From: Aquificota bacterium
GTDB taxonomy: Bacteria > Aquificota > Aquificia > Aquificales > Aquificaceae
Length of the DNA stretch: 64,000 bases
Reading direction: 5' to 3'
Assembly: GCA_030549905.1 (NCBI GenBank)
Contig: JAUQQK010000008.1
Location: forward strand, 1 to 64,000
Shown here: positions 14,424-64,000 of the stretch, piece after piece
How the letters are laid out: each line of letters opens with the position of its first letter
How positions within the stretch are numbered: position 1 is the stretch's first letter
The notes under the pieces: model-generated
Told to the model about the DNA's origin: nothing
What the model saw: only the letters and a program-made list of their open reading frames with translations
The model's database searches: none
Program-made: the position numbers and the translations under genes

Positions 14424-15263
14424 ATGAAGGACCGCATCAGTATAAGCGTGGTGTGGCACGACCACAGGAAGCCCCTTGTAATAGTTATTAAAAAAAGCCT
14501 TATTAAAAGACTTGCTCTTGTTTTTGCCTTTTTCTTTGCCTTCTGGGTTTCCTTACAGGTCTGGGGTCTATGGAATTACTGGGAAAAGACTAAAATAGCT
14601 AAGGAAAAGGAGGAAGTTCAAAAGTCTCTTAGCCTTTTTAATGAGGAGAGGAGCAGGCTTCAGACGGAAAAGGAAAGATTGTCCGCATACAAGCAAAAGG
14701 TAAAAGAGTTAGAGGGCAGGCTTCTTCAGGTGGAAGAATACTTAAGAAAAAGGGGGATAGCTTTAGGCTCAAGGGGGCTTGGAGGACGGGCAGGCTACAG
14801 ACCTGAAGAGGAGGAAGAATACTTATCCTTTATAGTAAACAGGAGCGAGGAGCTTATGCTAATACTTAAGAGCATACCCGCAGGCTACCCCCTTTATGGC
14901 ACCATAAATTCCACCTTCGGCTGGAGGAAAAACCCCTTTGGAAGAGGCTATGAGTTTCATACGGGCGTGGATATAGACGCTCCATACGGTGCGCCAGTCA
15001 GAGCCACTGCGGATGGTGTGGTGTCCCATGCGGGCAGGTTTGGAGATTATGGAAAGGCGGTGGTCATTGAACACGGGCATGGCTATTCCACCCTATACGG
15101 ACATCTTTCTCAGGTGCTTGTGAAGGAAGGTCAGAAGGTAAAGGCAGGAGATATAATAGGCAGAGTGGGTTCCACCGGCAGGTCTACGGGAGCTCATCTG
15201 CATTATGAGGTATTGTTTGGAGGCAAACCCGTGAACCCTATGGATTATCTGGTCTGGAGGTGA
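14424..15263 (+). CDS. membrane-anchored M23 peptidoglycan endopeptidase
   Basis: 279 residues: a short cytoplasmic start, a membrane segment at about 28-50, a coiled coil at about 52-112 and a C-terminal M23 (LytM-type) domain at about 155-275. Zinc ligands are visible in FHTGVDIDAPYG (HxxxD) and in GAHLHYEVL (HxH); YSTLYGHLSQ is also conserved. It should cut peptide cross-links in peptidoglycan from the periplasmic face. The bactofilin gene starts three bases after its stop. This neighbour pairing is well known and links curvature or local wall remodelling to a bactofilin scaffold. The catalytic residues are complete, so it is likely an active enzyme. Confidence 0.9.
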   Translation: MKDRISISVVWHDHRKPLVIVIKKSLIKRLALVFAFFFAFWVSLQVWGLWNYWEKTKIAKEKEEVQKSLSLFNEERSRLQTEKERLSAYKQKVKELEGRLLQVEEYLRKRGIALGSRGLGGRAGYRPEEEEEYLSFIVNRSEELMLILKSIPAGYPLYGTINSTFGWRKNPFGRGYEFHTGVDIDAPYGAPVRATADGVVSHAGRFGDYGKAVVIEHGHGYSTLYGHLSQVLVKEGQKVKAGDIIGRVGSTGRSTGAHLHYEVLFGGKPVNPMDYLVWR

Positions 15264-15266
15264 GCC

Positions 15267-15656
15267 ATGTTTGGAGGAAAAAAACAGGAAAAGGCTGTAA
15301 GCGTGGGTAGCTCTGAGGTGCAGACCCTTATAGGTGCAGGCTGTGAGTTTGAGGGGAATTTAAGGCTTGAAGGTGGAATGGTGAGGATTGACGGGGTTAT
15401 AAAGGGGGACATAACGGGCAATGCCTTTGTGGTGATAGGTAAGGAGGGAAAGGTTTTCGGAAACATAAAGGTGGAGCATTTAGCCCTGTATGGCGAGGTA
15501 AGGGGCAATGTGGAGGCAGGTGAGGTAGAATTGCATGAAGGTAGTATTCTGGAAGGCGATATGAATGTGAAGGCTCTTTTCGTAGAAAAGGGAGCCATAT
15601 TCAACGGTAAGTGTCTTATGGAAAGGGGGAGCAGGAGCTCCCCTGAGGAAGTTTAA
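15267..15656 (+). CDS. bactofilin
   Basis: 129 residues with a short polar start and a central bactofilin (DUF583) beta-helix at about 18-115, visible as repeated six-residue hydrophobic turns such as GNLRLEGGMVRIDGVIKGDI and GNAFVVIGKEGKVFGNI. Bactofilins self-assemble without nucleotide into cytoskeletal filaments, often membrane bound. The gene lies three bases after the M23 peptidase, so it probably positions that enzyme. The start ATG has GGAGG upstream. Its 3' end overlaps the convergent acs by 4 bases. Confidence 0.92.
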   Translation: MFGGKKQEKAVSVGSSEVQTLIGAGCEFEGNLRLEGGMVRIDGVIKGDITGNAFVVIGKEGKVFGNIKVEHLALYGEVRGNVEAGEVELHEGSILEGDMNVKALFVEKGAIFNGKCLMERGSRSSPEEV

Positions 15657-17545
15657 TCCTCTAAGGTGGAAACATCTCCTACAGGCAGACCCAGCTCTTG
15701 AGCCTTTAGGACCCTCCTCATTATCTTACCGCTTCTGGTCTTTGGAAGTTTCTCCACAAATTCTATCTCGTCCGGCACCGCTATAGCTCCCAGAATCTGC
15801 TTTACATGCTGTTTTATCTCTTCCTTAAGGTGGTCTGTGGGTTCTACGCCCTTCTTGAGAATAACAAAAGCCTTTATGGATTCGCCCTTTATCTCGTGAG
15901 GTTTGCCAATTACAGCCGCCTCCGCCACTGCAGGGTGGTCCACTATAGCACTTTCAACCTCCATAGTTCCTATCCTGTGTCCTGCCACATTGAGCACATC
16001 GTCCGCCCTTCCCAGTATCATTATGTAGCCTTCCTCATCGTAAGTAGCCAGGTCTCCCGCAAGGTAGTAGCCGGGTATGGTGTTCCAATACTTCTCATAA
16101 CGTTCTGGTTCACCCCAGCAGGTTCTAAGCATAGAGGGCCAGGGCGTTTTTATAACAAGGTTTCCAACTGTATTAGGTGGAAGAGGATTACCCTGACTAT
16201 CTACTACCGCCACTTCCACGCCAAAGTAAGGCTTTCCTGCCTTTCCGGGTTTGGCTGGATAAGAAGGTATGGTGGTTATCATGTGCATGCCCGTTTCCGT
16301 CTGCCACCACGTATCCACTATCACGCACTTTTCTCTTCCTATGTGCTTGTAATACCAGTGCCAGGCTTCAGGGTTTATGGGCTCACCCACAGAGCCAAGT
16401 ATCCTTAAAGAAGACATATCGTATTTGGCAGGCCACTGCTCTCCATACCTCATGAACATCCTTATGGCGGTGGGTGCTGTGTAGAAGACATTTACCCTAT
16501 ACTTTTCCACATAGCTCCACCACCTTCCGGGGTCTGGATAGTCCGGTGCTCCCTCCGTTATCACAGAAGTAGCTCCACAAGCAAGAGGTCCATACACGAT
16601 GTAGCTGTGCCCTGTAATCCAGCCTATGTCCGCAGTGCACCAGTATATGTCATCTTCGTGAAGGTCAAAGGTTATCTTTGTGGTAAAGTATGTGCCCACC
16701 ATGTAGCCACCGGTGGTATGAAGCACTCCTTTGGGTTTTCCTGTTGTGCCGGACGTATAGAGTATAAAGAGGGGGTCTTCCGCATCCATATGCACAGGCT
16801 CGCACTCGGGTGAGCTGTTTTTCACAAGTTCGTCAAAGCTTACAAAAAGACCCTCTGAGCCATTTAGCACATCTTTATCCCTGTCCCAGACTATCACCTT
16901 TTCTACAAAGCCAAGTCCATCAATAGCTCTTTGGGCTGTTGCGAAAAGGTCTATTTTTTTACCCCTTCTTTTCGTATAGCTGGCGGTTATTAAAACCTTT
17001 GCCTTTGCATCTTCAATCCTGAGCCTAAGAGCCCCTTCGCTAAAGCCTGCAAAAACCACGCTGTGTATAGCACCTATACGGGCGCAGGCAAGCATACAAG
17101 CTATGGCTTCTATGGTGTTGGGCATGTATATGGAAACCCTGTCTCCCTTCTTTACACCCAAAGACTTAAGACCGTTGGCTATGCGGTTGACAAGCTCTAA
17201 AAGCTCTCCATAGGTTATCTTCTTTTCCCTGTTGTCTTCATCCACAAAGATGTAAGCCACTTTATTGCGTTTGCCGTTTGCCACATGCCTGTCAAGGCAG
17301 TTATAAGTTATGTTGGTCCTTCCACCTAAAAACCACTTGGCATAGGGATAGTTCCACTCAAGCACCTTGTCCCACTTTTTAAACCAGTGAAGCTCTTCTG
17401 CCACCTTTGCCCAGAAGGCTTCCCTGTCTTTGATGGATTCCTGATAGAGGCTCTCATAGTCCTTTACCCAGGCCCTCTCCACTATAGGGACTGGTGGGTG
17501 GTACTTCTCTTCCACCTTAAGGTGAACTTCTTCCCTGACCTCCAT
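15653..17545 (-). CDS. acs: acetyl-CoA synthetase, AMP-forming
   Basis: 630 residues, full length. The adenylate-forming P-loop is LYTSGTTGKPKGVLHTTGGY; WWQTETGMHM and YYLAGDLATYDEEGYI are ANL-superfamily motifs. The C-terminal KTRSGKIMRRVL contains the catalytic lysine (about K607), which is the acetylation site controlled by CobB-type deacylases in other bacteria. It activates acetate to acetyl-CoA. AAGGAGG stands before the ATG. The gene is divergent from DUF485-actP, so acetate uptake and activation share a control region. A sirtuin gene is present at 28.9 kb. Confidence 0.97.
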   Translation of the reverse strand: MEVREEVHLKVEEKYHPPVPIVERAWVKDYESLYQESIKDREAFWAKVAEELHWFKKWDKVLEWNYPYAKWFLGGRTNITYNCLDRHVANGKRNKVAYIFVDEDNREKKITYGELLELVNRIANGLKSLGVKKGDRVSIYMPNTIEAIACMLACARIGAIHSVVFAGFSEGALRLRIEDAKAKVLITASYTKRRGKKIDLFATAQRAIDGLGFVEKVIVWDRDKDVLNGSEGLFVSFDELVKNSSPECEPVHMDAEDPLFILYTSGTTGKPKGVLHTTGGYMVGTYFTTKITFDLHEDDIYWCTADIGWITGHSYIVYGPLACGATSVITEGAPDYPDPGRWWSYVEKYRVNVFYTAPTAIRMFMRYGEQWPAKYDMSSLRILGSVGEPINPEAWHWYYKHIGREKCVIVDTWWQTETGMHMITTIPSYPAKPGKAGKPYFGVEVAVVDSQGNPLPPNTVGNLVIKTPWPSMLRTCWGEPERYEKYWNTIPGYYLAGDLATYDEEGYIMILGRADDVLNVAGHRIGTMEVESAIVDHPAVAEAAVIGKPHEIKGESIKAFVILKKGVEPTDHLKEEIKQHVKQILGAIAVPDEIEFVEKLPKTRSGKIMRRVLKAQELGLPVGDVSTLED

Positions 17546-17648
17546 GTTAAAACCTCCTTTAAGGTTGTTATAAAAAAGTATAACCCAATTCTATTGGTAG
17601 GAAAATTTGTTTAAAAATATATGATGTTTGTTATAGATTTTTGTTTTC

Positions 17649-17682
17649 TTGACAAAAAGATAAGACTTTTATCATGTAATTT
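17649..17682 (+). repeat. 34-bp direct repeat A in the acs-actP region
   Basis: Begins TTGACAAAAA and contains the inverted pair GATAA-GACTT-TTATC. It matches repeat B (17716-17749) at 30 of 34 positions by eye. Despite the TTGACA no -10 box lies at the right distance, so an operator is more likely than a promoter. Confidence 0.6.
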
Positions 17683-17715
17683 GGGAGTGGAGTGATTTGC
17701 TTTAAGGAGGTTGCT

Positions 17716-17749
17716 TTGACAAAAACATAAGATTTTTATCATATGATTT
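17716..17749 (+). repeat. 34-bp direct repeat B in the acs-actP region
   Basis: Begins TTGACAAAAA, core ATAAGATTTTTATCAT. It starts 67 bases after repeat A and about 85 bases before the actP -35 box, a position suited to an activator. Confidence 0.6.
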
Positions 17750-17800
17750 TGAAAAAGACCCGACTATCTGTGATAAATATATGCTTAAAATCTTATAATC

Positions 17801-17829
17801 TTGACAATATTCAAGGCTTTTTATAAAAT
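17801..17829 (+). promoter_or_regulatory. sigma-70-type promoter of DUF485-actP
   Basis: TTGACA (17801-17806), a 17-base spacer and TAAAAT (17824-17829). The predicted start is about 20 bases before the strong ribosome binding site AAAGGAGG. Confidence 0.7.
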
Positions 17830-17856
17830 AGACCAAAACCTTAAAGGAGGTGTTTC

Positions 17857-18147
17857 ATGAAGGAAATGCTCGAATCAAGAGAGTTTAAGGAGCTTGCGTC
17901 GAAGAGGAATAAGATTGTCGCTGTCTTAACCTTAATTCAACTAATCATGTATTTTGGCTTCATATTGGTCTTGGCTTTTAAAAAGGATATACTTAGTCAA
18001 AAGTTAAGCGAAGGTATAACAGTGGGTATTCCTGTAGGCATTGCGGTGATAGTTATATCCTGGCTTCTTACAGGAGTTTATGTATATTGGGCTAATACGT
18101 ACTACGACCGTGCGGTTGATGAAATTAAAAATAAGCTTAGGAGGTAA
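17857..18147 (+). CDS. DUF485 membrane protein (YjcH-like)
   Basis: 96 residues with two membrane segments at about 24-43 and 57-77, a pattern typical of DUF485 proteins. The family is almost always encoded just before ActP-type acetate permeases, as here (three bases before it), and is thought to be an accessory or small subunit of the transporter. AAAGGAGG precedes the ATG. The C-terminal motif VYWANTYYDRAVDEIKNKL matches the family. Confidence 0.85.
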   Translation: MKEMLESREFKELASKRNKIVAVLTLIQLIMYFGFILVLAFKKDILSQKLSEGITVGIPVGIAVIVISWLLTGVYVYWANTYYDRAVDEIKNKLRR

Positions 18148-18150
18148 GCC

Positions 18151-19692
18151 ATGCTACAAACAAGTCTTGGACAACCAAATCCAGTAGCTATAGTCTTTTT
18201 CTTCCTCTTCGTTGCCATAACCCTTGGGATAACTTACTGGGCTGCGAAGAGAACAAGGACAACAAGCGAGTTTTACGCAGCAGGAAGAAGTATATCTGGC
18301 TTCCAGAACGGGCTTGCAATAGCAGGAGACTACATGAGTGCTGCCTCGTTTCTTGGGATAGCCGGGCTTGTAGCCCTAAAAGGTTATGATGGACTCATAT
18401 ACTCCATAGGCTTTTTGGTGGGGTGGCCCATAGTTATGTTCCTGATTGCTGAACCTCTTAGAAACTTGGGTAAGTATACCTTTGCGGATGTGGTTGCCTA
18501 CAGACTATCTCAAAAACCCATAAGAGTATCAGCTTCTTTGGGCGCCTTATCTACTGTTATTCTTTACCTTATCGCCCAGATGGTAGGTTCTGGCAACCTT
18601 ATAAAGCTCCTTTTTGGAATACCTTATGAATGGTCTGTAGTTATAGTAGGTGCTATCATGATAGCTTACGTGCTCTTTGGTGGTATGCTGGCTACCACAT
18701 GGGTGCAAATCATAAAAGCGGTATTGCTGTTGGGTGGTGCTACTATCCTTGCCCTTCTTACTCTTTCTTATTTTGGTTTTAATCCTGTATCGCTTTTTTC
18801 AAACGTAGCACAAAAGTATGGAGATAAAATGCTCATGCCTGGCGGACTTGTGGCCAATCCTTGGGATGCAGTATCCCTGGGTCTTGCCCTGATGTTTGGA
18901 ACCGCAGGACTGCCTCATATACTCATGAGGTTCTATACTGTTCCAGATGCAAAAGAGGCAAGGAAGTCTGTATTTTATGCAACAGGCTTTATAGGATACT
19001 TTTATATACTAACCTTCATAATAGGGTTTGGAGCTGCTGCGCTGGCAGGGCAGGAAATTATATCCAAGATAGATAAGGGGGGGAATATGGCAGCTCCCTT
19101 GCTTGCGGAGGCTGTTGGTGGTACCGTATTCTTAGGATTTATTGCAGCGGTTGCTTTTGCAACCATACTTGCGGTAGTTGCAGGTCTTACCTTAGCTGGT
19201 GCTTCTACCCTTTCTCATGACATATATGCAAACGTGGTTAGAGGCGGGCATTCTTCAGAAGAAGAAGAAGTAAAAGTTGCTAAATTAGCCACCTTAATAC
19301 TCGGTGTGCTTGCTATCGTGCTTGGCATTCTCTTTAAGGGACAAAATGTAGCCTTCATGGTGGGTCTTGCCTTCGCAATAGCAGCAAGTGCTAACTTTCC
19401 ACCTTTGGTTATGTCCATTTTCTGGAAAAAATTCACTACAGCGGGGGCGGTAGCAAGCATACTTACCGGCACCTTCTTAGCGGTAGTCCTTATCATTCTT
19501 AGCCCAACAGTGTGGGTAGACTTGTTTAAAAATAAAACCGCCATATTCCCCCTAAAGAACCCTGCATTGATTTCCATGACTGCCTCCTTCTTAGTAGGCA
19601 TCCTGGTTTCACTGCTAACGAAGGAAGAGAGCGCAGAGAAAAAGTATGAAGAGGAAAAGATTAGAACCTACTTGGGAGTAGGTGCGGAATAA
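18151..19692 (+). CDS. actP: acetate permease, sodium:solute symporter family
   Basis: 513 residues and about 13 hydrophobic segments. SSS-family motifs include [20 protein letters not shown] and [38 protein letters not shown] and [15 protein letters not shown] are characteristic of ActP. It should import acetate or other short carboxylates across the inner membrane with a cation. Together with acs it makes an acetate-scavenging unit. An intrinsic terminator follows at 19699-19718, yet the next gene starts soon after on the same strand. Confidence 0.93.
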
Positions 19693-53348: not shown

Positions 53349-54409
53349 AAAGGGTTCAAAGAGTTCAGGACATGTTAAGAAAGCATAAGCTTGATGCTTT
53401 TCTTTTCAGTTCTCAGGCAAACGTCTTTTATCTTTCTGGCTTTAAATCAAGTCATGCATATGTGGTGGTTTCAAGGGACTCCTTTCACCTTTTCACAGAT
53501 GGGAGATACTACGACAGGGCTAAGGAAGTATTGAAGGGCTGGGATGTGAGGCTCATAAAGGGGAAGGCAATAAGCGAGTTGAAAGCTTTTTTAAAAAGGC
53601 TTGGTGTCTTTAGAGTAGGCTATGAAGAAGACAGAGTAAGCTGTGAGATAAGAAGACAGTTGAGGGGAAGTCTGAAGTGGGTGGGGTTCAGCGGCTTTTT
53701 GAAGGAGATAAGAAGCATAAAGGACAGAGAGGAGATAGAAACCATGAGGGAGGGCGTTAGAGCCAGCGACAGGGTTTATAGCAGGCTTCTTAACATGCTT
53801 AGTGAGGGTATGAGGGAGCTTGATGTTAGGGCTTTGATAGTAAGAGAGTTCTTCAAAGAGGGGGCTACGGGTGAGAGCTTTCCAGCCATAGTGGCTAGTG
53901 GTGAAGGCTCAGCCATACCTCACTGGGAGACATCCAACAGGAGGTTAAGATATAAAGAGGCGGTTCTTATAGATATGGGGCTTGTCTGGAAGGGATACTG
54001 CACGGATTTTACACGCACCCTTTTTCTTGGCAGGGCAAGCTCAGAATTCAGAAGGGTCTATCAGGTGGTCCGGGACGCCCACCTCTATGCCCTTGAAAAG
54101 GTAAAAGCAGGTGTAAAGCTTGGTGAGGTGGACAAGACAGCAAGGGAATACATAAGAAAGAAGGGTTATGGAAAGTTCTTTACCCACTCTACAGGGCATG
54201 GCGTGGGCATAGAGATACATGAGCATCCAAGGGTTTATTACAAAGGGCAGGACAAGGACCTGATCATAGAAGAAGGAATGGTTTTTACCATAGAGCCAGG
54301 CATATACCTGCCCAAAAAGTTTGGCGTAAGGCTTGAAAACATAGTGGCTGTAATAAACGGAAGAGGGGAGCCACTATCAGGCATAGGGCTTGACTTGATA
54401 GAGCTTTAA
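53345..54409 (+). CDS. M24-family Xaa-Pro aminopeptidase
   Basis: 354 residues: an N-terminal creatinase-like domain (1-125; LDAFLFSSQANVFYLSGF) and a pita-bread catalytic domain. Metal ligands lie in IDMGLVWKGYCTDFTRTLFL (two Asp), FTHSTGHGVGIEIHEHP (His) and EEGMVFTIEPGIYLP and VRLENIVAV (two Glu). It removes an N-terminal residue before proline. Its start overlaps rpoN by 4 bases. A tRNA gene begins 29 bases after its stop. Confidence 0.92.
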   Translation: MKRVQRVQDMLRKHKLDAFLFSSQANVFYLSGFKSSHAYVVVSRDSFHLFTDGRYYDRAKEVLKGWDVRLIKGKAISELKAFLKRLGVFRVGYEEDRVSCEIRRQLRGSLKWVGFSGFLKEIRSIKDREEIETMREGVRASDRVYSRLLNMLSEGMRELDVRALIVREFFKEGATGESFPAIVASGEGSAIPHWETSNRRLRYKEAVLIDMGLVWKGYCTDFTRTLFLGRASSEFRRVYQVVRDAHLYALEKVKAGVKLGEVDKTAREYIRKKGYGKFFTHSTGHGVGIEIHEHPRVYYKGQDKDLIIEEGMVFTIEPGIYLPKKFGVRLENIVAVINGRGEPLSGIGLDLIEL

Positions 54410-54438
54410 AGTTATAATACTATACTGCTATCGCTTGA

Positions 54439-54599: not shown

Positions 54600-56897
54600 A
54601 TGCATGTGGATATTCTTATCTTTTTAAGTACAGACAAAGAAGAAGATTACTTTCCTGTTTTTTATGAGGAGCTTGATTTTTTAGGTTTTAGAGAATTTTG
54701 GGAATATCCTGAGTGCAAAGAACCTTTGCTTTGGGGTAAAGATGCTGGGGCTTTTATAGAGTACTGGTATAAAGGCAAGCTTGTAGCAAAAGTAAGAAAG
54801 GGAGCCTTGTTTAAGAAGCATTCTATAAAGTATGTAGAAAGGGGTCTTAGGCTTGAGCCTATGGACGTTGAGAAGCTAAAAAGTCTGTATGAAAGCCATA
54901 TTAGAGACCTGACTAATGAAGCTCTTGATTACATAAACATGGAGGTAGAAAAATTTAAAGAGTTCGGTCATGGTCTTGTAGTTTCTTATAGTGGAGGTAA
55001 AGACTCACAGGTGGTACTGGACCTCCTTCTTCAAGTGATACCATACAAAGACCTTTATGTGGTTTTTACTGATACAAAGATGGAATTGGACGATACATAC
55101 AAAACGGTGGAGCTAACAGAAGAGTATTACAGAAAAATTTTTCCAGATTTTAAAATCCATGTAGTTTCAAGTCCTTTTGAAACTGCAGAACTTTGGGAAC
55201 TTTTTGGACCACCAAGCAGGTTAAAAAGATGGTGTTGTAGTGTGTATAAAATTGCTCCTCAGGTTAAATTTCTGGATAGGTTGGGAAACGCAGGGTCAAA
55301 CAGCGTCCTTGTTTTTGAAGGCACTCGGGCAAGTGAAAGTAAAACAAGAGCAAACTCTTGCAGGACATCTCCAAGAGAAAAAACCTTTAGGGAGATAAAC
55401 ATAAGACCTATTTTTCATTGGAGAGACTTTGATGTTTATATGTATATTCTACTTAAGGAACTTCCTTTGAACCCTCTATACAGAAAAGGTTTTAGGCGTG
55501 TGGGATGTAGCGTGTGTCCTTTTGCTTCAAACTGGTCGGAGTATCTGATTGAAAACTTGTATCCTCACAGAGCGGAAAGGTTTATAAGGGTGCTTGAAAA
55601 CTATGCCTATAATATGGGGGTAGAAAAACAAGAGGAGCTTATAGAGTATATCTCTTCTGGTGCATGGAAAATGAGGGCTGGAGGCGTGGGGCTAAAAAGT
55701 GAGCAATCGGTAGAGTTTCTAAGGGAAGAGAATTCTCTAAAGGCGGTCTTGAAAAGTCGCAGGGAAAACTTTTTTGAATGGGTAAAGACGGTGGGAACTC
55801 TTCACCTTTTGGAAGAAAAGGATGGGTATAAAAAGGGTGAGTTGAGGGTTGGTGATACAGTAATCAAGTTTGTATACAAAGAGAAGGGAGATATAACAAG
55901 AATAGAGTTTCACGACCTTGAACCTCACCCTGTACTTTATTCAAAGTTGGAAAAAGTTCTATATAAGACTACTTACTGTCTTCACTGTACGGGATGTGAA
56001 GTAGAATGTCCTCATTTTGCTGTTATTACCTATCCAAAGGTTGTAGTCAATTCTTCTAAATGTACTCACTGTGGGAACTGTCTTGACTTTTTACCCACAG
56101 GTTGTTATGTGGCGGAGTCTCATGGTATATTTATAATGCCTAAGATGAAGAAGACAGGAAAGCTTAAAATAGACAGATATAATACTTTTGGGCTTAGGGA
56201 GAGGTGGTTGATTAGTTTTATCAATGAAGGAAAGGAATTTCTTTTAAATAATACCTTGGGCGTTAAACAGAAGGAAGCTTTAAAAAGATTTCTTTTTGAT
56301 ATAGGTTGTATAGACAATAAACAAAACATTCTTGAGTTATATGATTTACTCAAGCAAGTTTATAAAAAAGACACCGAAGCCTTCTGGCAAATAGTATGGA
56401 TAGAGTTATGCATAAATTCAGACCTATTCAGATTTTACGTGGAAGAAATACCTTGGGGAAAGGTCTGGACTAAGGAAGAACTGGTTAAAAAGCTGGTAGA
56501 AGAAAAGGGAGTGGCGGAAAGGACTGCAAGGAATGGCATAAATTCGCTTACAAACACTTTTGAGGAGAGTCCTCTGGGTCAATGGTTTGGAAGAAAGGAA
56601 GGGAAGGGTCAATACTTCAAGGTTGGTACTGACAAGGTTAGCAGTCTTGTAGTAGGCTATGCTCTATACAGGCTGAAAGATGTAAAAGGCTGGAGTGAGA
56701 CTACAATAAGGGAACTTGCAAGCATAAAGGAGGGTCCAGTTGGTTGGTTTGGAATGTCCAAAGAAACTCTAAAAGACAAAATTCTCTCACTCAAAAATGA
56801 AAAACTGATTGATGCGGACATTACTGCAGACCTTGACAATGTGTTCTTCTATAATTTTGACTCTAAGGGTTTTCTAAAGGAAGCTTTGAAAGAATGA
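54600..56897 (+). CDS. brxP: BrxP: PAPS-reductase-like protein with ferredoxin and DUF4007-like domains
   Basis: 765 residues: an N-terminal region of about 120 residues without a known fold; a PAPS-reductase/DndC-like domain (about 125-330) with the P-loop SYSGGKDS (129-136), RLKRWCCSVYKIAPQ and VGCSVCPFASNW; a two-cluster ferredoxin-like domain with Cys 460, 463, 466, 470 and 488, 491, 494, 502; and a C-terminal DUF4007-like domain (about 525-690). BrxP replaces the methyltransferase PglX in type 4 BREX and was linked by homology to DNA phosphorothioation. It is the first gene of the operon; AAAGGATG lies eight bases before the ATG. It overlaps the next gene by 4 bases. Confidence 0.88.
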   Translation: MHVDILIFLSTDKEEDYFPVFYEELDFLGFREFWEYPECKEPLLWGKDAGAFIEYWYKGKLVAKVRKGALFKKHSIKYVERGLRLEPMDVEKLKSLYESHIRDLTNEALDYINMEVEKFKEFGHGLVVSYSGGKDSQVVLDLLLQVIPYKDLYVVFTDTKMELDDTYKTVELTEEYYRKIFPDFKIHVVSSPFETAELWELFGPPSRLKRWCCSVYKIAPQVKFLDRLGNAGSNSVLVFEGTRASESKTRANSCRTSPREKTFREINIRPIFHWRDFDVYMYILLKELPLNPLYRKGFRRVGCSVCPFASNWSEYLIENLYPHRAERFIRVLENYAYNMGVEKQEELIEYISSGAWKMRAGGVGLKSEQSVEFLREENSLKAVLKSRRENFFEWVKTVGTLHLLEEKDGYKKGELRVGDTVIKFVYKEKGDITRIEFHDLEPHPVLYSKLEKVLYKTTYCLHCTGCEVECPHFAVITYPKVVVNSSKCTHCGNCLDFLPTGCYVAESHGIFIMPKMKKTGKLKIDRYNTFGLRERWLISFINEGKEFLLNNTLGVKQKEALKRFLFDIGCIDNKQNILELYDLLKQVYKKDTEAFWQIVWIELCINSDLFRFYVEEIPWGKVWTKEELVKKLVEEKGVAERTARNGINSLTNTFEESPLGQWFGRKEGKGQYFKVGTDKVSSLVVGYALYRLKDVKGWSETTIRELASIKEGPVGWFGMSKETLKDKILSLKNEKLIDADITADLDNVFFYNFDSKGFLKEALKE

Positions 56898-57481
56898 ACA
56901 GATATTTAACTTTTGGTCTCAGATTAATCTGGTTTGAGAGTTTTCTTTACGGTCTTGAAGGTTGGCTAAGAGAAAACACGCTTGGACCTGTGCAGAAAAA
57001 AGCTATGAGAAACTACCTTCTGGATATAAAGCTAATAGACCCAAAGGGAAATCTCACACCTCTTGCTTACGAGTTCTCAGAAATTTACCCTAAAGACCCA
57101 AAGGCTGTATGGCAGGTAGTATGGTTAAATCTCTGTTTGAACTCAAAACTTTTCATCTTTTACTGGGTAGCGGTGCCTTTTGGAAGTCAGTGGAGAAAGG
57201 AAGAGCTTATAAAAAAGCTTGTGGAACTTGGTTATGCAGAGAGAACTGCAAGAAACGCAATAAATGCACTAACAAACACTTTTGAGGAAAGTCCTCTTGG
57301 TGAATGGTTTGGGAAAAGAGTGGAAAGAGGCGTCTATTATAAGGAGGGGCTAAGGGAACTGTCCTTTTATGCCTTCAAGAAGGCATATGAGCTTTTTGGA
57401 GAGAACTACGAGCCATATGGCTACATCTTTGGAATTGACAGGGAAGCCTTTAATTACCTTCTGTTAAAATATAACCCATGA
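56894..57481 (+). CDS. stand-alone DUF4007-like protein, paralogue of the BrxP C-terminus
   Basis: 195 residues. It aligns over most of its length with the BrxP C-terminal domain: YNTFGLRERWL versus YLTFGLRLIW, DTEAFWQIVWIELCINS versus DPKAVWQVVWLNLCLNS, and nearly identical ERTARNGINSLTNTFEESPL versus ERTARNAINALTNTFEESPL. The helical ERTARNA(I)NAL block could be a helix-turn-helix, since the preceding residues are KEELIKKLVE. It is placed between brxP and brxC with 4-base overlaps on both sides. Function unknown; a separate copy of the BrxP domain may compete with or replace it in a complex. Confidence 0.85.
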   Translation: MNRYLTFGLRLIWFESFLYGLEGWLRENTLGPVQKKAMRNYLLDIKLIDPKGNLTPLAYEFSEIYPKDPKAVWQVVWLNLCLNSKLFIFYWVAVPFGSQWRKEELIKKLVELGYAERTARNAINALTNTFEESPLGEWFGKRVERGVYYKEGLRELSFYAFKKAYELFGENYEPYGYIFGIDREAFNYLLLKYNP

Positions 57482-60400
57482 AACACTCAGAGCTTGTAGA
57501 GATAAGGAGGGATTATATACCTGTCTTCAGGCTCGGAAATGAGGAACACGAAAGACACTGGAAAAGCTACGTGCCTCATGAGAACTTTCAGGAACTTCTT
57601 GACAAGGTTATTAATATTTTAGAAGGAAAATCAAAGAAAAATGCTGTATGGCTTCAAGGTTCTTATGGAACTGGAAAAACTCATGCTTGCAGTGTTGTAG
57701 CACATCTGGTTTCTGAAGATATAAAAAACATAGAAGATTACATAGAAGGATTGAGACCAGAACTTAGACACCGTTTGAAATATTTCAGAGAAAAATACAG
57801 GTACTTGCCTGTATATATGAGAGGTACTGAAGAAGCTCCTTCCTTGAACCATCTGGAGAAGATATATGTTAGAATTGCTATAAAAAGGGCTCTTCTGAAG
57901 GCAGGTATAAAAGAGGTGATTGAGTATGAACTGGATAAAATCTTAGAGTATCTTCCGCAGATAGTTGCCAAAAAGGGAGAAGAGAAGATACTTCAGGAAT
58001 ACACCTATGGAAAATACGAAAGCCTTTCCGCCTTTCTGGAAGACCTGAAAAAACCTACTCCTGAACCAGAAGCTCTTGAGATGGCAAATTCTATACTGGA
58101 AAAGGAAGAAGGCTTGCACTTTAGCTTTGCTCTTGAAGAATGGCTTGAAAAGGTAAATAAGCTTCTAAAAGATAGAGGTTATTCAGGCATTCTTCTCATA
58201 TGGGACGAATTTACAGAGATAATAAAGTCTGAAAGCCATCATCTTGAGAAGCTTCAAAACCTTGCAGAAAAAAATCAAATCAAGCTAATAATAGTTAGCC
58301 ATGTGGGTGAAGCAGAACTAAGAAGCGTGCTTGAAGAAAAAACATTGCGTAAGATAGAAGACCGTTTTGAAAAGCACAGGCTTAAGCTTGAGGAAATAAC
58401 CGCCTTCAAGATACTTCAGGGTGCCTTTCACATAAAGGACTATCAGAGGATAAAGGAAACCTTTGAAAGGCTGGAGGGTTTGCTAAGGCACATTTCAAGA
58501 CTTTTAGATGACCAGAAAATAGAAAAAGAAGATATCATAAAGGTTTATCCGCTACATCCTTACACTACCCTTTTATGCACGGATATTGCAGAAAGGTTTT
58601 TCTCTGCTACCAGAAGTATGTTTGACTTTTTGTTTGGCTCAGAGAGAGTTTTGTCTGCCTTTCTTGAAAAGACGGTGGAAGAAGAGCCTTTTTTAACGGT
58701 GGATTACCTGTGGGATTACTTTTACCGTGTGGTTGAGGAGGGCAGAAGGGAAGACAGACTCATAGACATACTCAGCTTTTACAATACCTACGCAAACAGG
58801 TGCAGAGAGAAAGGAGAAGAGTATCTGAAGGTTTTTAAGGCTCTGATGGTCTTTAACCTGCTCTACAGGGGCATGGACAGACCCAAGCTGTTTGAAGAAC
58901 CCACGGAGGAAAACATAAAGAGGGCTTACGTGGGAACACCCTTAGAATCAAAGTGTGTAGATGTATTGAGGTGGCTTGAAGAGGAGGATATACTTCACAA
59001 GGACCCAGATGGAAAGTATAGAGTAGATCTTCGCTCTGGTCTTCCACAGCGTGAGATAGATAAGGAAAAGGAAGCACTAAGGAACAAGTATGCTTCTATC
59101 AGCACCGCTTTAAAGGAAATGGACAGAGAAAAACTCAAGGATAGTCTTTCATTAAGAATACTGAGAGAAACATACCTGAACATACTTACCCCTACAGACC
59201 ATCCACTGCAGAAGGAGGAAGACCACACCCTAAACCTTTTCGTGGGTTTTCCTACCACAGAAGCGGAGCGAAACAGATACATAGAAAAATTCAGAGAGCT
59301 AAGCTCCAGCTACTCCAAGGCAGTCTTTATAGTCTATGAAGAGGTCTTCGGAGATAAGAGCCTTGAAAGGTGGATAGACTATAAAGCTCGTGAAAGAGTG
59401 GCTCAAAATCACCAGCTAAATGAACAAAGATACGACTATTCAAGGCATGCCAGCAAAATGTTAGAAGATTATATATCAAAGCTCACGTACGCGCTTATCT
59501 TTTATGAGGGTAATGAGGAAAGATTATCCAGGTCCTTTTTGAAGGACAAGCTAAATATTATCTCCAGAAGGCTATTCGCATACGGACCTGAAAATCTCAA
59601 AGACATTACCAATCAAAACCTGTGGAAAACCTTCTCCTCAGTGCCTAGGCTCGTAGATAATATACTGCAAAGCTCAAGTCTTTCAAGCATAACCCAGAGC
59701 ATAACTTCAAGACCAGACAACGAACTGCTCAACGGTTTGAAGGATAAACATGACAGATACATTTTTGACGACAAGTTTTCAAACACGTATGCGGACCCGG
59801 AAGAACACCCTATTGTAAATATATACGAGCAAATAAAGAACCTCTTCGGTCAGAAGAGAGAAATATCTGCAAAAGACCTTGGTTTTCTTAAAAAACCTCC
59901 TTATGGTCTTTACAACAACAAGGTCAGCCTCTTTATGCTAACGATGGCAATAAAGCCTTTGCAGGAAAAACTCCACAGGGTAGGCTATGGTAAGGTAGAT
60001 ATAGCTACGTTGAAGGACTTTATAGGTCAGTTTTTTGGGCTTTCAAAAACATTAAACCCTATTAGGCTGAGGCTTGGCAGTGAGGAAGAGGAAAAGCTCA
60101 CAAATCTTCTCAGGGATATCTTCTCAAATTTTGTAAGCTTTCAAGAAGAAGACAAAGACCTTATAAAAGTTAGAAACACCATCAGGGAAAATATACAGAG
60201 CAAGCTGAAAAGACCTATATGGAGCCTTGCTTACCTTGATGAAGAAACCCTATCCAGATGGGGAATAGAACCGCAGAGGGTTAAAGATACTATAAGAAAC
60301 CTTTCTTCCTTCATAGGTAGTGCTGATAACTACTCTGAGGAAGATATAAAGAACCTTTATAATGAGTTAGACAGATATAAAAATTCATACTCAGAGTTGT

Positions 60401-60837
60401 TTGGAAATACCAATTACTATGTAATAGGTATGAAAAACCTCATACAACAACGTCTGCAGGGTAGAAACATAAAAGTGGAAGAAGTGGGAACGCTGTTAGA
60501 AACAAGACTAAGCACTAATCCTATATTCTGGAAAGAGGCAGAAGTATCTCATGAGATAGACAGAATAATCAGAGAATTAATAGAGAAAAAGCAAGAAGAG
60601 AAGCAGAAAATAGAAAAGATTTCATCTCCTGTAAGTTCTTTATCTATGCCTTCTCATGAAGAACCATCAGTTGAGGGAATAAAACAAGAAGAAAGAAAGC
60701 AAGAAAGAACAGATATTTATCTAAGGTTAGAAAATCTTAGTAAGGTAGAACTTATGAATTTGATTTCCCACCTTATTAGCCTTTACCCCCACCTCAAAAA
60801 TGAGGTTGAATTATGGCTCTTGTCGAAGGGCTATTAG
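57478..60837 (+). CDS. brxC: BrxC/PglY-type ATPase of BREX
   Basis: 1119 residues. Walker A GSYGTGKTH (G61-T68) and Walker B LIWDEFTE (D243, E244) mark the P-loop ATPase near the N-terminus; the remaining 850 residues are helical and unlike other families. RDYIPVFRLGNEEHERHWKS at the start is typical of this group. BrxC is a large ATPase required for defence and DNA modification in BREX systems. The C-terminal 100 residues (from EKKQEEKQKIEKI on) are low-complexity and charged. The gene overlaps the DUF4007-like gene by 4 bases and pglZ by 25. Confidence 0.9.
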   Translation: MKHSELVEIRRDYIPVFRLGNEEHERHWKSYVPHENFQELLDKVINILEGKSKKNAVWLQGSYGTGKTHACSVVAHLVSEDIKNIEDYIEGLRPELRHRLKYFREKYRYLPVYMRGTEEAPSLNHLEKIYVRIAIKRALLKAGIKEVIEYELDKILEYLPQIVAKKGEEKILQEYTYGKYESLSAFLEDLKKPTPEPEALEMANSILEKEEGLHFSFALEEWLEKVNKLLKDRGYSGILLIWDEFTEIIKSESHHLEKLQNLAEKNQIKLIIVSHVGEAELRSVLEEKTLRKIEDRFEKHRLKLEEITAFKILQGAFHIKDYQRIKETFERLEGLLRHISRLLDDQKIEKEDIIKVYPLHPYTTLLCTDIAERFFSATRSMFDFLFGSERVLSAFLEKTVEEEPFLTVDYLWDYFYRVVEEGRREDRLIDILSFYNTYANRCREKGEEYLKVFKALMVFNLLYRGMDRPKLFEEPTEENIKRAYVGTPLESKCVDVLRWLEEEDILHKDPDGKYRVDLRSGLPQREIDKEKEALRNKYASISTALKEMDREKLKDSLSLRILRETYLNILTPTDHPLQKEEDHTLNLFVGFPTTEAERNRYIEKFRELSSSYSKAVFIVYEEVFGDKSLERWIDYKARERVAQNHQLNEQRYDYSRHASKMLEDYISKLTYALIFYEGNEERLSRSFLKDKLNIISRRLFAYGPENLKDITNQNLWKTFSSVPRLVDNILQSSSLSSITQSITSRPDNELLNGLKDKHDRYIFDDKFSNTYADPEEHPIVNIYEQIKNLFGQKREISAKDLGFLKKPPYGLYNNKVSLFMLTMAIKPLQEKLHRVGYGKVDIATLKDFIGQFFGLSKTLNPIRLRLGSEEEEKLTNLLRDIFSNFVSFQEEDKDLIKVRNTIRENIQSKLKRPIWSLAYLDEETLSRWGIEPQRVKDTIRNLSSFIGSADNYSEEDIKNLYNELDRYKNSYSELFGNTNYYVIGMKNLIQQRLQGRNIKVEEVGTLLETRLSTNPIFWKEAEVSHEIDRIIRELIEKKQEEKQKIEKISSPVSSLSMPSHEEPSVEGIKQEERKQERTDIYLRLENLSKVELMNLISHLISLYPHLKNEVELWLLSKGY

Positions 60838-62936
60838 AAAAACTAAGAAAAATAGATGAGAGTCCATACGAGAGAAGCTTGGCTGTTCGCTTTGTTTTAC
60901 TTAGAACTTTTTCAGGTCTGCGTTCTTTAGATAAGGAATTAAGGGAAAAGGGTTATAAAACCTTCTATCTTGAAAACTTTATAAGAGAGGGTAAGAACTG
61001 GCTTTCTATAGAAGACTTGAAAAGGATAGTAGAGGACCTTTTAAAAGAGGCTGGCTATAGTTTTTTATTTTCTGCTTGCAACCTTTTACGTTTCTATTCT
61101 GACGACGAGCTTAAAAAACTGCTTTACTCTTTTGAAAGATATAGACCTCCTTTTGAGATTACAGACAGAAAAGTTGTTTTAGTGCTTTCTGGAATAGGTC
61201 AAAGAGTGAAAAGGTTCATAGGTGATAATCCTCTGGTGGTAGAGCTTCCAGAAGAGGAAAATCACAGAGTGCAACTTTATGTATTAAACCCGCAACTTGA
61301 GATTAATGTGGAACTTTTAAACTTTAAACAACTACTTGAACTTTGGAAGAAAAAAATAGAAAAAGCCTTTATAAAGCTTGATTACATATACAAAAGGTCA
61401 AAAAACGCCTATCCTGACGATGCGGTAGTGGTTGAAAAGATAGACAGCTATAAGGAATTTCTGGAAAAGGTTTATGGTATATACGACGAGCTGTTTAAAG
61501 AAGAGGAAGTATGCGAGTTTATCGTAAAAGAGCTACAAAGGGAAGAAAAAAGCAATATAGAAGAGCTAAGTATAGTAAAAAGCTTAGGAAATCAGAAGGA
61601 TTTACTGCTTATTACCTTTCTGAAGGAGCCTACAAAAAGCAAAAGGGTATTCTATTTATATCTGTTGAAAAAGCTTTTTGATTTTCCAAAGTCTTTACTA
61701 TCTGAAGACCCTATTGAGCTTCTGGAAAGTATCTATCGTTTAGGAGAGATAGAGCTTTTGAAAAAAATACTTATAGAGATACCGAGCTATGAGGAGGAGC
61801 TTTGTAAAAAAATTAATGGACAATTTATAAGAGGGCTTCTTGATTGTGAAAAAAGACACTTGCTTATTTCCTATGCGGAAGGTAAAATTGAAGAAGATGA
61901 ATTACTGAAGGTAGAAGACTTCTGTAACTACCTTTATGACCCATACGACCTTACAGATATACCCTTTGACTGGCTTAGGAGATACTTTACCCTATACAAA
62001 AGGGCTAAACTGAAGGATATAAAGGACGAAGAGCTTGAAAAACTCCTCGAAGAAAATTCTTCAGAAGACAAGTTCTATTCTTGGTATGCATACTTTAGAA
62101 GTCCGAAAGAAGCTCTTGAGAATTTAAGAAGTGAGGCGGATGAGATATACTGGATAGATGCTCTTGGTTTTGAGTGGGCGGGCTTTACTGTAAAGTATTT
62201 CTTGCAGAAAGGTTTAAACGTAATACGTTTTGAAGTTCTGAAGGCACAGCTACCAAGTATAACAGAAGAAAATAGGTTAGAAAATTGCCAGTATATAAGA
62301 GATTTTGATATGCTTTTGCATCAAACTTATGAATACCCTGAAAGTTTTTTAGAGCAAATCAGGAAACTTAAAGATATTTTCAAGAGTATATACAGTCCAA
62401 ATAAAAGAATTCTTATCATTTCTGACCATGGTTCTACCTTCTTATCAAGACTTTATGAACCGTTGAAATATGAGGTGCAAGCTCTTCATAGTGGAAGATA
62501 CACAAAAGATTTCATAGATACTCCTCATGTGTTGAAAAAGGAAGAATATTTCATTGCAAAATTCCACAGTTCCTTGAAACACAAACCTTATTCAGAAGTC
62601 CATGGAGGTGCAACTCCAGAAGAAGTGCTGACCTTTGCCTTGCTATTTGCTCCGTACGGTGCGGAAAAAAGGGTAAAGGTAAAGCTTGAAAATAAAAAAG
62701 TTCCAAGAATTGGTGAGCTTGTCCTTTCCTTTTATCCGATAGTACCAAAAGGACTTACCATATATATAGACAGGAAACCTGTAAAGTTTGAAACAAAAGG
62801 AGATAAAGTGATTGTGAATTTAAAAGAAGTAAAACTTAGGACTGGAAAGCACATTTTAAAAGTGACTGGTGAAGGTATAGACGAAAGCATTGATTTTGAG
62901 GTGGTTGGAGGGCTTTTAGAAGATGAACTATTCTGA
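60813..62936 (+). CDS. pglZ: PglZ-type alkaline-phosphatase-fold protein of BREX
   Basis: 707 residues. The C-terminal third has the PglZ (alkaline phosphatase superfamily) domain: IYWIDALGFEWAGF (D449) and LIISDHGSTFLSRLYEP (D538, H539) supply metal ligands. FHSSLKHKPYSEVHGGATPE (HGGxxxEE type) completes the site. The N-terminal part (about 1-430) is a helical region of BREX PglZs. PglZ is the one component common to all BREX types and is needed for defence. It overlaps brxC by 25 bases and brxL by 14. Confidence 0.9.
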   Translation: MALVEGLLEKLRKIDESPYERSLAVRFVLLRTFSGLRSLDKELREKGYKTFYLENFIREGKNWLSIEDLKRIVEDLLKEAGYSFLFSACNLLRFYSDDELKKLLYSFERYRPPFEITDRKVVLVLSGIGQRVKRFIGDNPLVVELPEEENHRVQLYVLNPQLEINVELLNFKQLLELWKKKIEKAFIKLDYIYKRSKNAYPDDAVVVEKIDSYKEFLEKVYGIYDELFKEEEVCEFIVKELQREEKSNIEELSIVKSLGNQKDLLLITFLKEPTKSKRVFYLYLLKKLFDFPKSLLSEDPIELLESIYRLGEIELLKKILIEIPSYEEELCKKINGQFIRGLLDCEKRHLLISYAEGKIEEDELLKVEDFCNYLYDPYDLTDIPFDWLRRYFTLYKRAKLKDIKDEELEKLLEENSSEDKFYSWYAYFRSPKEALENLRSEADEIYWIDALGFEWAGFTVKYFLQKGLNVIRFEVLKAQLPSITEENRLENCQYIRDFDMLLHQTYEYPESFLEQIRKLKDIFKSIYSPNKRILIISDHGSTFLSRLYEPLKYEVQALHSGRYTKDFIDTPHVLKKEEYFIAKFHSSLKHKPYSEVHGGATPEEVLTFALLFAPYGAEKRVKVKLENKKVPRIGELVLSFYPIVPKGLTIYIDRKPVKFETKGDKVIVNLKEVKLRTGKHILKVTGEGIDESIDFEVVGGLLEDELF

Positions 62937-64000
62937 ACTTGACAGGAAAATAAGAGACATTTTTCCTGAAGAAAGTGTGTATAAAGATGATAGTGTGAGG
63001 GCTATATTTTCTGGAAGAAAGTTACCTTCCTTCATAAAAGACTGGCTGATAAGTAAATACACAGATACAGATACAGGCAAGGTAGATAAGGAAGGTATCC
63101 TTGACTTTCTCGAAAGACATATTCCGCAAGGTGAAGAAGTAAAACTAAGGCTTATAAAATATCCAGGAAAACCTATAAAGCTATTATTAAGAGTTATAGT
63201 TGAACCAGATATAAAAAGTGGTCTTATGCGTTTTTATGCTCCTGACATAGGTCTTAAGAGAGATGAAGGAATAGTTTCAAACATGCTACTGGAAGAAGGT
63301 CTAAGTGTAGGAGAACACTGGGGAGTGTGTGAGCTTGTATACAGAAAAGAAGAAAACAAATTAGGTTATGTGGAACTTATTAACTTTAAACCCTTTAGAC
63401 CTTACAGGGTAAATGTTGAATACTACATGCAAGCAAGAAGAGAGTTTAAGCTGGAAGAGTGGTTAGACCTTTTAGTGAGGTCTATGGAATATAATCCTCA
63501 TGCACTTGATAAAGATGAAAAACTTATGTTGATTCGAAGGCTTTTAGTGTTTGTAGAACCAAACTTAAATGTAATAGAGTTGGCTCCTAAGGGAACTGGT
63601 AAATCTTACGTTTTTTCAAACCTCTCCAAGTATGGCATACTACTAAGCGGTGGTTATGTATCAAGAGCTAAGCTTTTTTACGACCTTCAAAGAAATACGG
63701 AAGGCATAATAACCAAGTATGACTTTGTAGCTCTTGATGAAGTACAAACTATTCGTTTTAGCGATGAGGATGAGATAAGGGGAGTTTTGAAAAGTTATTT
63801 GGAAAACGGTACTTTCAACATAGGCAACTACAGGGGTGTAGGACATGCGGGTTTCGTTCTTTTAGGAAACATACCGCTCGATGATGAAAAAAGACCAGTA
63901 GAAAGCTTTTATTTTAAAGAGCTTCCAGAGGTTTTTCATGAGTCTGCTCTTCTGGATAGGTTCCACGGCTTTATTGAAGGTTGGAAGCTTCCACGTTTTA
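62923..64000 (+). CDS. brxL: BrxL: Lon-like AAA+ protein, 5' part
   Basis: 359 codons from the ATG at 62923, open to the window end. Walker A APKGTGKSYVFSNLSKYG (G224, K227) and Walker B YDFVALDEVQTI (D272, E273) are followed by DRFHGFIEGWKLPR, a BrxL-specific motif. The N-terminal part (1-200) precedes the ATPase; the Lon-protease-like C-terminal domain is beyond the window. BrxL forms a ring around DNA in studied systems. It starts inside the pglZ end, 14 bases before its stop. It is the fourth core gene of type 4 BREX. Confidence 0.9.
   Translation, partial: MNYSELDRKIRDIFPEESVYKDDSVRAIFSGRKLPSFIKDWLISKYTDTDTGKVDKEGILDFLERHIPQGEEVKLRLIKYPGKPIKLLLRVIVEPDIKSGLMRFYAPDIGLKRDEGIVSNMLLEEGLSVGEHWGVCELVYRKEENKLGYVELINFKPFRPYRVNVEYYMQARREFKLEEWLDLLVRSMEYNPHALDKDEKLMLIRRLLVFVEPNLNVIELAPKGTGKSYVFSNLSKYGILLSGGYVSRAKLFYDLQRNTEGIITKYDFVALDEVQTIRFSDEDEIRGVLKSYLENGTFNIGNYRGVGHAGFVLLGNIPLDDEKRPVESFYFKELPEVFHESALLDRFHGFIEGWKLPRF

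Follow-up and report, generated by a model that had tools for sequence, protein, structure and literature searches.

The DUF4007 protein of type 4 BREX is described as an SspB/BrxA-like tripartite DNA-binding component that is frequently fused to a PAPS reductase (PMC12839542), and phosphorothioate (PT) DNA is reportedly made by brxPCZL systems (PMC11931770). SspB is a DNA nickase, and its nicking is essential for single-strand PT formation in Ssp (PMC8092258). BrxA of type I BREX binds BrxC and inhibits BrxC-DNA binding (PMC13326643). A matter of interest in BREX is how the marking of the cell's own DNA is kept apart from the attack on foreign DNA.

The locus described here lies in a stretch of 64,000 nucleotides from an Aquificaceae genome (hereafter, the window). 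The operon type and the component are those described in PMC12839542, but the window operon has a fused and a free copy of the component together. No description of fused and free DUF4007 copies in one operon was found in the literature searched, an absence that is not in itself proof. The free gene encodes a genuine additional subunit, conserved and of a kind already known; what is new is the arrangement.

The operon and its fifth gene

Profile searches revealed a complete type 4 BREX gene set in one operon, comprising BrxP with its PAPS reductase, BrxC, a type 4 PglZ and BrxL (Table 1). The host assembly is 1.65 Mb in length and 99.9% complete; brxL extends beyond the end of the window and encodes 471 aa in the genome. 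The free gene is situated between brxP and brxC, as the fifth gene of a brxPCZL operon, and the 4-base overlaps with both neighbours that had been reported in the first-pass annotation are indeed present. That annotation also regarded type 4 BREX as a system of four genes. The free gene is additional to the usual brxPCZL, but the count of four is too low, since DUF4007 is already a listed component, usually in fused form (PMC12839542).

Table 1. Features of the BREX-4 operon, in window coordinates
Feature	Coordinates	Strand	Evidence or description
brxP	54600..56897	+	PADLOC BrxP PDLC02510, E 8e-207; Pfam PAPS_reduct, 5.7e-37
brxP make-up	54600..56897	+	PAPS-reductase/SspD-like domain, ferredoxin-like Cys-rich region, C-terminal SspB/DUF4007-like domain (residues 524-765)
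BrxP fused SspB-like three-module DNA-recognition domain	56169..56894	+	AlphaFold pLDDT 96.3; SspB 6juf, Z 21.2 over 241 residues
ATGA overlap, brxP/free gene	56894..56897	+	Sequence
Free SspB-like protein gene	56894..57481	+	195 aa ORF; modules 1 and 2 complete, module 3 as helices without wing
RTARNAINALTNTFEESPLG block region, free-gene codons 116-140	57239..57313	+	Module 2 long helix and following turn
ATGA overlap, free gene/brxC	57478..57481	+	Sequence
brxC, AAA+ ATPase (SspC-like)	57478..60837	+	PADLOC BrxC PDLC02472, E 4.2e-102
pglZ, BREX-4 type	60813..62936	+	NCBIfam NF033445 BREX-4 PglZ, 237 bits against a cut-off of 140
brxL	62923..64000	+	PADLOC BrxL PDLC02505, E 7e-192 (full gene)

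No cysteine desulfurase was found within the BREX-4 operon. Proteins of the class V aminotransferase family, of which desulfurases are members, are encoded elsewhere in the host genome (best E 1e-80), and this fits the published replacement of the desulfurase by housekeeping enzymes. Approximately 180 bases before brxP, at 54390-54418, there is a strong sigma-70-like promoter match (TTGACT-17-TATAAT, 11/12). It overlaps the end of the upstream peptidase gene, and such sites are no commoner in the region than expected by chance.

Sequence and fold of the two copies

A BLASTP comparison of the free protein with BrxP residues 524-681 showed 83 identical residues of 158 (53%, E 1e-50), so that the 195-residue protein does repeat the C-terminal end of BrxP, as had been noticed initially. 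It is a homologous paralogue of that domain but an incomplete copy, in that both the alignment and the models indicate the loss of part of the third wHTH module and of the last ~47 residues. A conserved ADLDN motif, in a strand of the third module, is absent from all four Aquificaceae free copies in the alignment, and these four share one C-terminal end point. The free proteins carry a modest net charge (-1 to +4).

The almost identical block to which attention had been drawn falls within free residues 116-140, where 22 of 25 residues are the same in the two window copies. It is apparent from the model that this block represents the long module 2 helix (residues 116-132) together with the next turn; the helix is the best conserved segment between the copies. 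Over residues 116-140 the free copies are 87% identical to one another and the fused copies 69%; the corresponding values for module 1 are 61% and 67%. Gene conversion was considered as a source of the near-identical block and rejected, since identity in module 1 was the same within and across genomes (0.51 vs 0.51) and that of the module 2 helix was only slightly higher within a genome (0.78) than across genomes (0.74). Base reading by the module 2 helix may be supposed from the nature of the winged-helix fold.

The label 'DUF4007-like', applied in the first-pass annotation, is justified by family membership, as PF13182 (DUF4007) matches 24 of the 37 rows of the domain alignment at E 0.01 (best E 8e-11), but not by the window copies themselves. 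The fused copy gave an E value of 0.006, below the Pfam cut-off, and the Pfam profile search gave no match to the free copy. In the weaker family members the PF13182 match falls mainly in the third module, which is partly lost in the free copy. A PF13182 search of the organism's own genome, also without a match, is uninformative, because the window copies lie below the reach of the model. The PADLOC BrxP profiles PDLC02510 and PDLC02511 do match the free protein (E 1.4e-31 and 3.5e-21, respectively), and the PADLOC BrxA profile does not. PADLOC includes a 265-residue 'BrxP' model, and short free proteins of this kind may already be present, unnamed, in databases.

AlphaFold models of the free and fused copies, each built from a 37-sequence alignment, had mean pLDDT values of 96.2 and 96.3, respectively. 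A PDB sequence search with the free protein yielded weak matches only, and Foldseek alone gave no significant match; VIA-align, used afterwards, found SspB. When the models were compared with solved structures, SspB was the top match of both the free protein (Z 14.8 over 194 residues) and the BrxP domain (Z 21.2 over 241 residues), followed by the DNA-recognition region of FokI (Z 7.8-8.4). The fold consists of an HTH and two wHTH modules, all three of which are present in the fused copy; the free copy has two and a wingless third, in which three helices are kept and the two-strand wing is missing. Taken together, these data securely identify the free gene as a shortened, free-standing paralogue of the SspB/BrxA-like DNA-recognition domain that is also fused to BrxP.

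The resemblance to SspB of SspABCD (PF13182; 6juf, 6lb9) extends over the whole length of the free protein, and the neighbours of the free gene likewise code for an SspC-like ATPase and an SspD-like PAPS reductase. Nevertheless, identity in the structural alignment is 16%, the third wHTH module is reduced, and in the window operon the PAPS reductase already carries a full SspB-like domain, the second of the operon. The BrxA protein of type I BREX, too, is small, free and DNA-binding, has a related tandem HTH architecture and is encoded in an operon with BrxC, but it belongs to another sequence family, and its relation to the free protein rests on published structure comparisons; the rows of the structure comparison made here included no BrxA structures. 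The DNA-recognition domain of FokI superposes on 151 residues of the free protein (Z 7.8), which differs in having no nuclease domain and in an identity of 9% in the structural alignment.

Distribution and origin of the free copy

A full brxP was found in 4 of 101 genomes of the family and order, in four genera, and in all four of these Aquificaceae genomes a free copy of 195-200 aa lies directly downstream. The initial observations had left room for the gene to be missing beside brxP in related genomes, or for its fold to differ from that of the BrxP C-terminus; instead, wherever brxP occurs in a related genome the free gene adjoins it, and SspB is matched by both proteins along their length. 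The order brxP-free gene-brxC-pglZ-brxL is repeated in the three further Aquificaceae genera, although one contig stops inside pglZ, and the genes of these operons overlap or nearly adjoin. At the level of the phylum the domain was present in 5 of 136 genomes, the fifth being represented by a Desulfurobacterium contig whose sequence stops within the fused domain; in none of the 136 was a free copy found without brxP.

A set of 51 BREX-4 operons was then gathered, drawn from genomes, from a plasmid and from virus-classed contigs. A single, fused copy of the domain was present in 42 and two copies in nine, a fraction that does not represent prevalence because the sample was non-random. Four of the two-copy operons are from Aquificaceae, one from Desulfobacteraceae and four from Bacillota, and the second copy occupies the same position in all nine. 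It is intact in the Desulfobacteraceae MAG (L052; 256 aa). Among the Bacillota, the second copy is open in L122, in which brxP itself is frame-broken, and is frame-broken in L123-L125; in all four loci the broken frame may reflect either decay or an assembly error. Two further candidates for free copies were rejected. The 257-aa ORF after brxP in L131 is the N-terminal part of BrxC, with its Walker A motif, and in L060 the frame continues past the contig end, so that this candidate is probably a truncated fused domain.

The Aquificaceae free copies group in the domain tree as a single clade (100/99), which joins the Aquificaceae fused domains (100/99), whereas the Bacillota second copies constitute a separate clade nested among the fused domains of their own genomes. 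One ancient free copy common to Aquificaceae and Bacillota was rejected (p-AU 0.004; 0.014 with the Desulfobacteraceae copy added), with the caveats that two Bacillota rows were joined across frameshifts, that the sequence composition is skewed and that L052 has a long branch. The duplication has, therefore, occurred at least twice, each time leaving a copy between brxP and brxC. For the Desulfobacteraceae second copy, which has a long branch, the origin is uncertain. Purifying selection acts on the Aquificaceae free genes (pN 0.15-0.32 vs pS 0.71-0.84). That the free copy is dispensable in some lineages follows from its absence from 42 of the 51 systems and from the broken frames of three of the four Bacillota second copies.

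Two loci contained further genes of note. Upstream of the BREX-4 brxP in L139 (301-1559) there are a gene for a WYL-domain protein and one for a 140-aa protein that matches only the start of DUF4007 (PF13182 positions 1-80, E 4e-27); the latter resembles what is left of a true Ssp-type SspB. In L142, several small genes follow brxL and, approximately 4.6 kb past it (15163-18201), there is a long SNF2-type helicase, whose best PADLOC match is DrmD and which also matches the HKD+Snf2 model. Its location suggests a defence island.

Possible roles of the free copy

The role that we favour, at a likelihood somewhat short of even, is that the free protein is a detached DNA-recognition subunit that works with BrxC, while BrxP keeps its own reader. 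DNA reading in these BREX-4 systems probably uses two subunits instead of one. The free protein would be made in step with BrxP and BrxC and would bind DNA through modules 1 and 2, with a recognition helix nearly the same as that of the BrxP domain. It would then load or restrain the BrxC ATPase on DNA, in the manner of the free BrxA of type I BREX, so that the BrxC-PglZ-BrxL arm could inspect target sites without the sulphur-transfer enzyme; the fused domain would direct BrxP to these sites, or to related ones, for phosphorothioation. Three points favour this model: the free BrxA of type I makes contact with BrxC, the free gene is coupled to brxC, and the common module 2 helix suggests similar sites. 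The first-pass annotation had suggested an adaptor, a self-recognition factor or a competitor of BrxP for BrxC or DNA, all of them conjectural roles. A role directed at BrxC is the most plausible in view of the binding of type I BrxA to BrxC and its inhibition of BrxC-DNA binding (PMC13326643). With the module 3 wing missing, the free protein may bind DNA weakly or have another role.

The main rival is that the free copy pairs with the C-terminal domain of BrxP, a full and a shortened reader jointly recognizing an asymmetric or two-part site. SspB is reported to be a dimer in crystals, with interface residues that are needed for function (PMC9240713), the near-identity of the module 2 helix alongside a diverged module 1 would suit such a pair, and the ATGA coupling favours an equal dose of the two. 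The fused domain is, however, alone in most of the systems sampled and BrxA is a monomer, and this alternative is considered somewhat unlikely. Clearly less likely is a negative regulator, in which the free reader would compete with BrxP and occupy BrxC or the target sites, thereby keeping restriction idle. The inhibition of BrxC by BrxA in type I (PMC13326643) and the lack of the catalytic parts of BrxP in the free copy are consistent with such a function, but the equal-dose coupling fits a subunit equally well.

It is quite improbable that the free protein retains or supplies SspB-type nicking apart from BrxP, so priming PT insertion. The analogy is drawn from the essential nicking by SspB in Ssp (PMC8092258) and from the common fold; the strand of the third module that carries the conserved ADLDN motif is, however, missing in all Aquificaceae free copies. 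That the gene is a functionless leftover of a tandem domain duplication is highly improbable, for although Bacillota second copies are often frame-broken, the Aquificaceae gene is an intact ORF of 195-200 aa in four genera, with low pN relative to pS and a common C-terminal end.

With one reader on the marking enzyme and a free putative reader encoded before brxC, the operon offers a natural system in which to examine the separation of marking from restriction, and the independent rise of this arrangement at the same gene position suggests a real advantage. A broader proposal, which we regard as unlikely but worth stating, is that the DNA reader of type 4 BREX has been split in two repeatedly, the modifying sulphur-transfer enzyme carrying one reader and the BrxC-driven restricting arm using another that is free. 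In these lineages self-marking and target inspection would then rely on readers that are separate and evolve independently, and phages may respond with a free copy of the reader as a decoy.

Viral sequences were scanned for relatives of the domain. No relatives were found with P0001 or with the Bacteroidota alignment, and the Lachnospiraceae alignment led to nothing beyond an ordinary BREX-4 operon. A free, full-length copy of the BREX-4 SspB-like domain, of 269 aa, is encoded at 2694-3503 of L143 (IMGVR_UViG_3300037504_001320; IMG/VR). It matches the PADLOC BrxP profile with an E value of 1e-65 and is 45-49% identical to the fused domains of other systems. No other BREX genes were recognized on the 18.8 kb of this contig, which derives from a tailed phage, as it encodes terminase, portal, scaffold and major head proteins. 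The domain may possibly be a decoy of the BREX-4 reader. Its gene lies 1 kb downstream of that for a protein matching an anti-restriction family (phrog_7245, E 1e-68, 773-1693).
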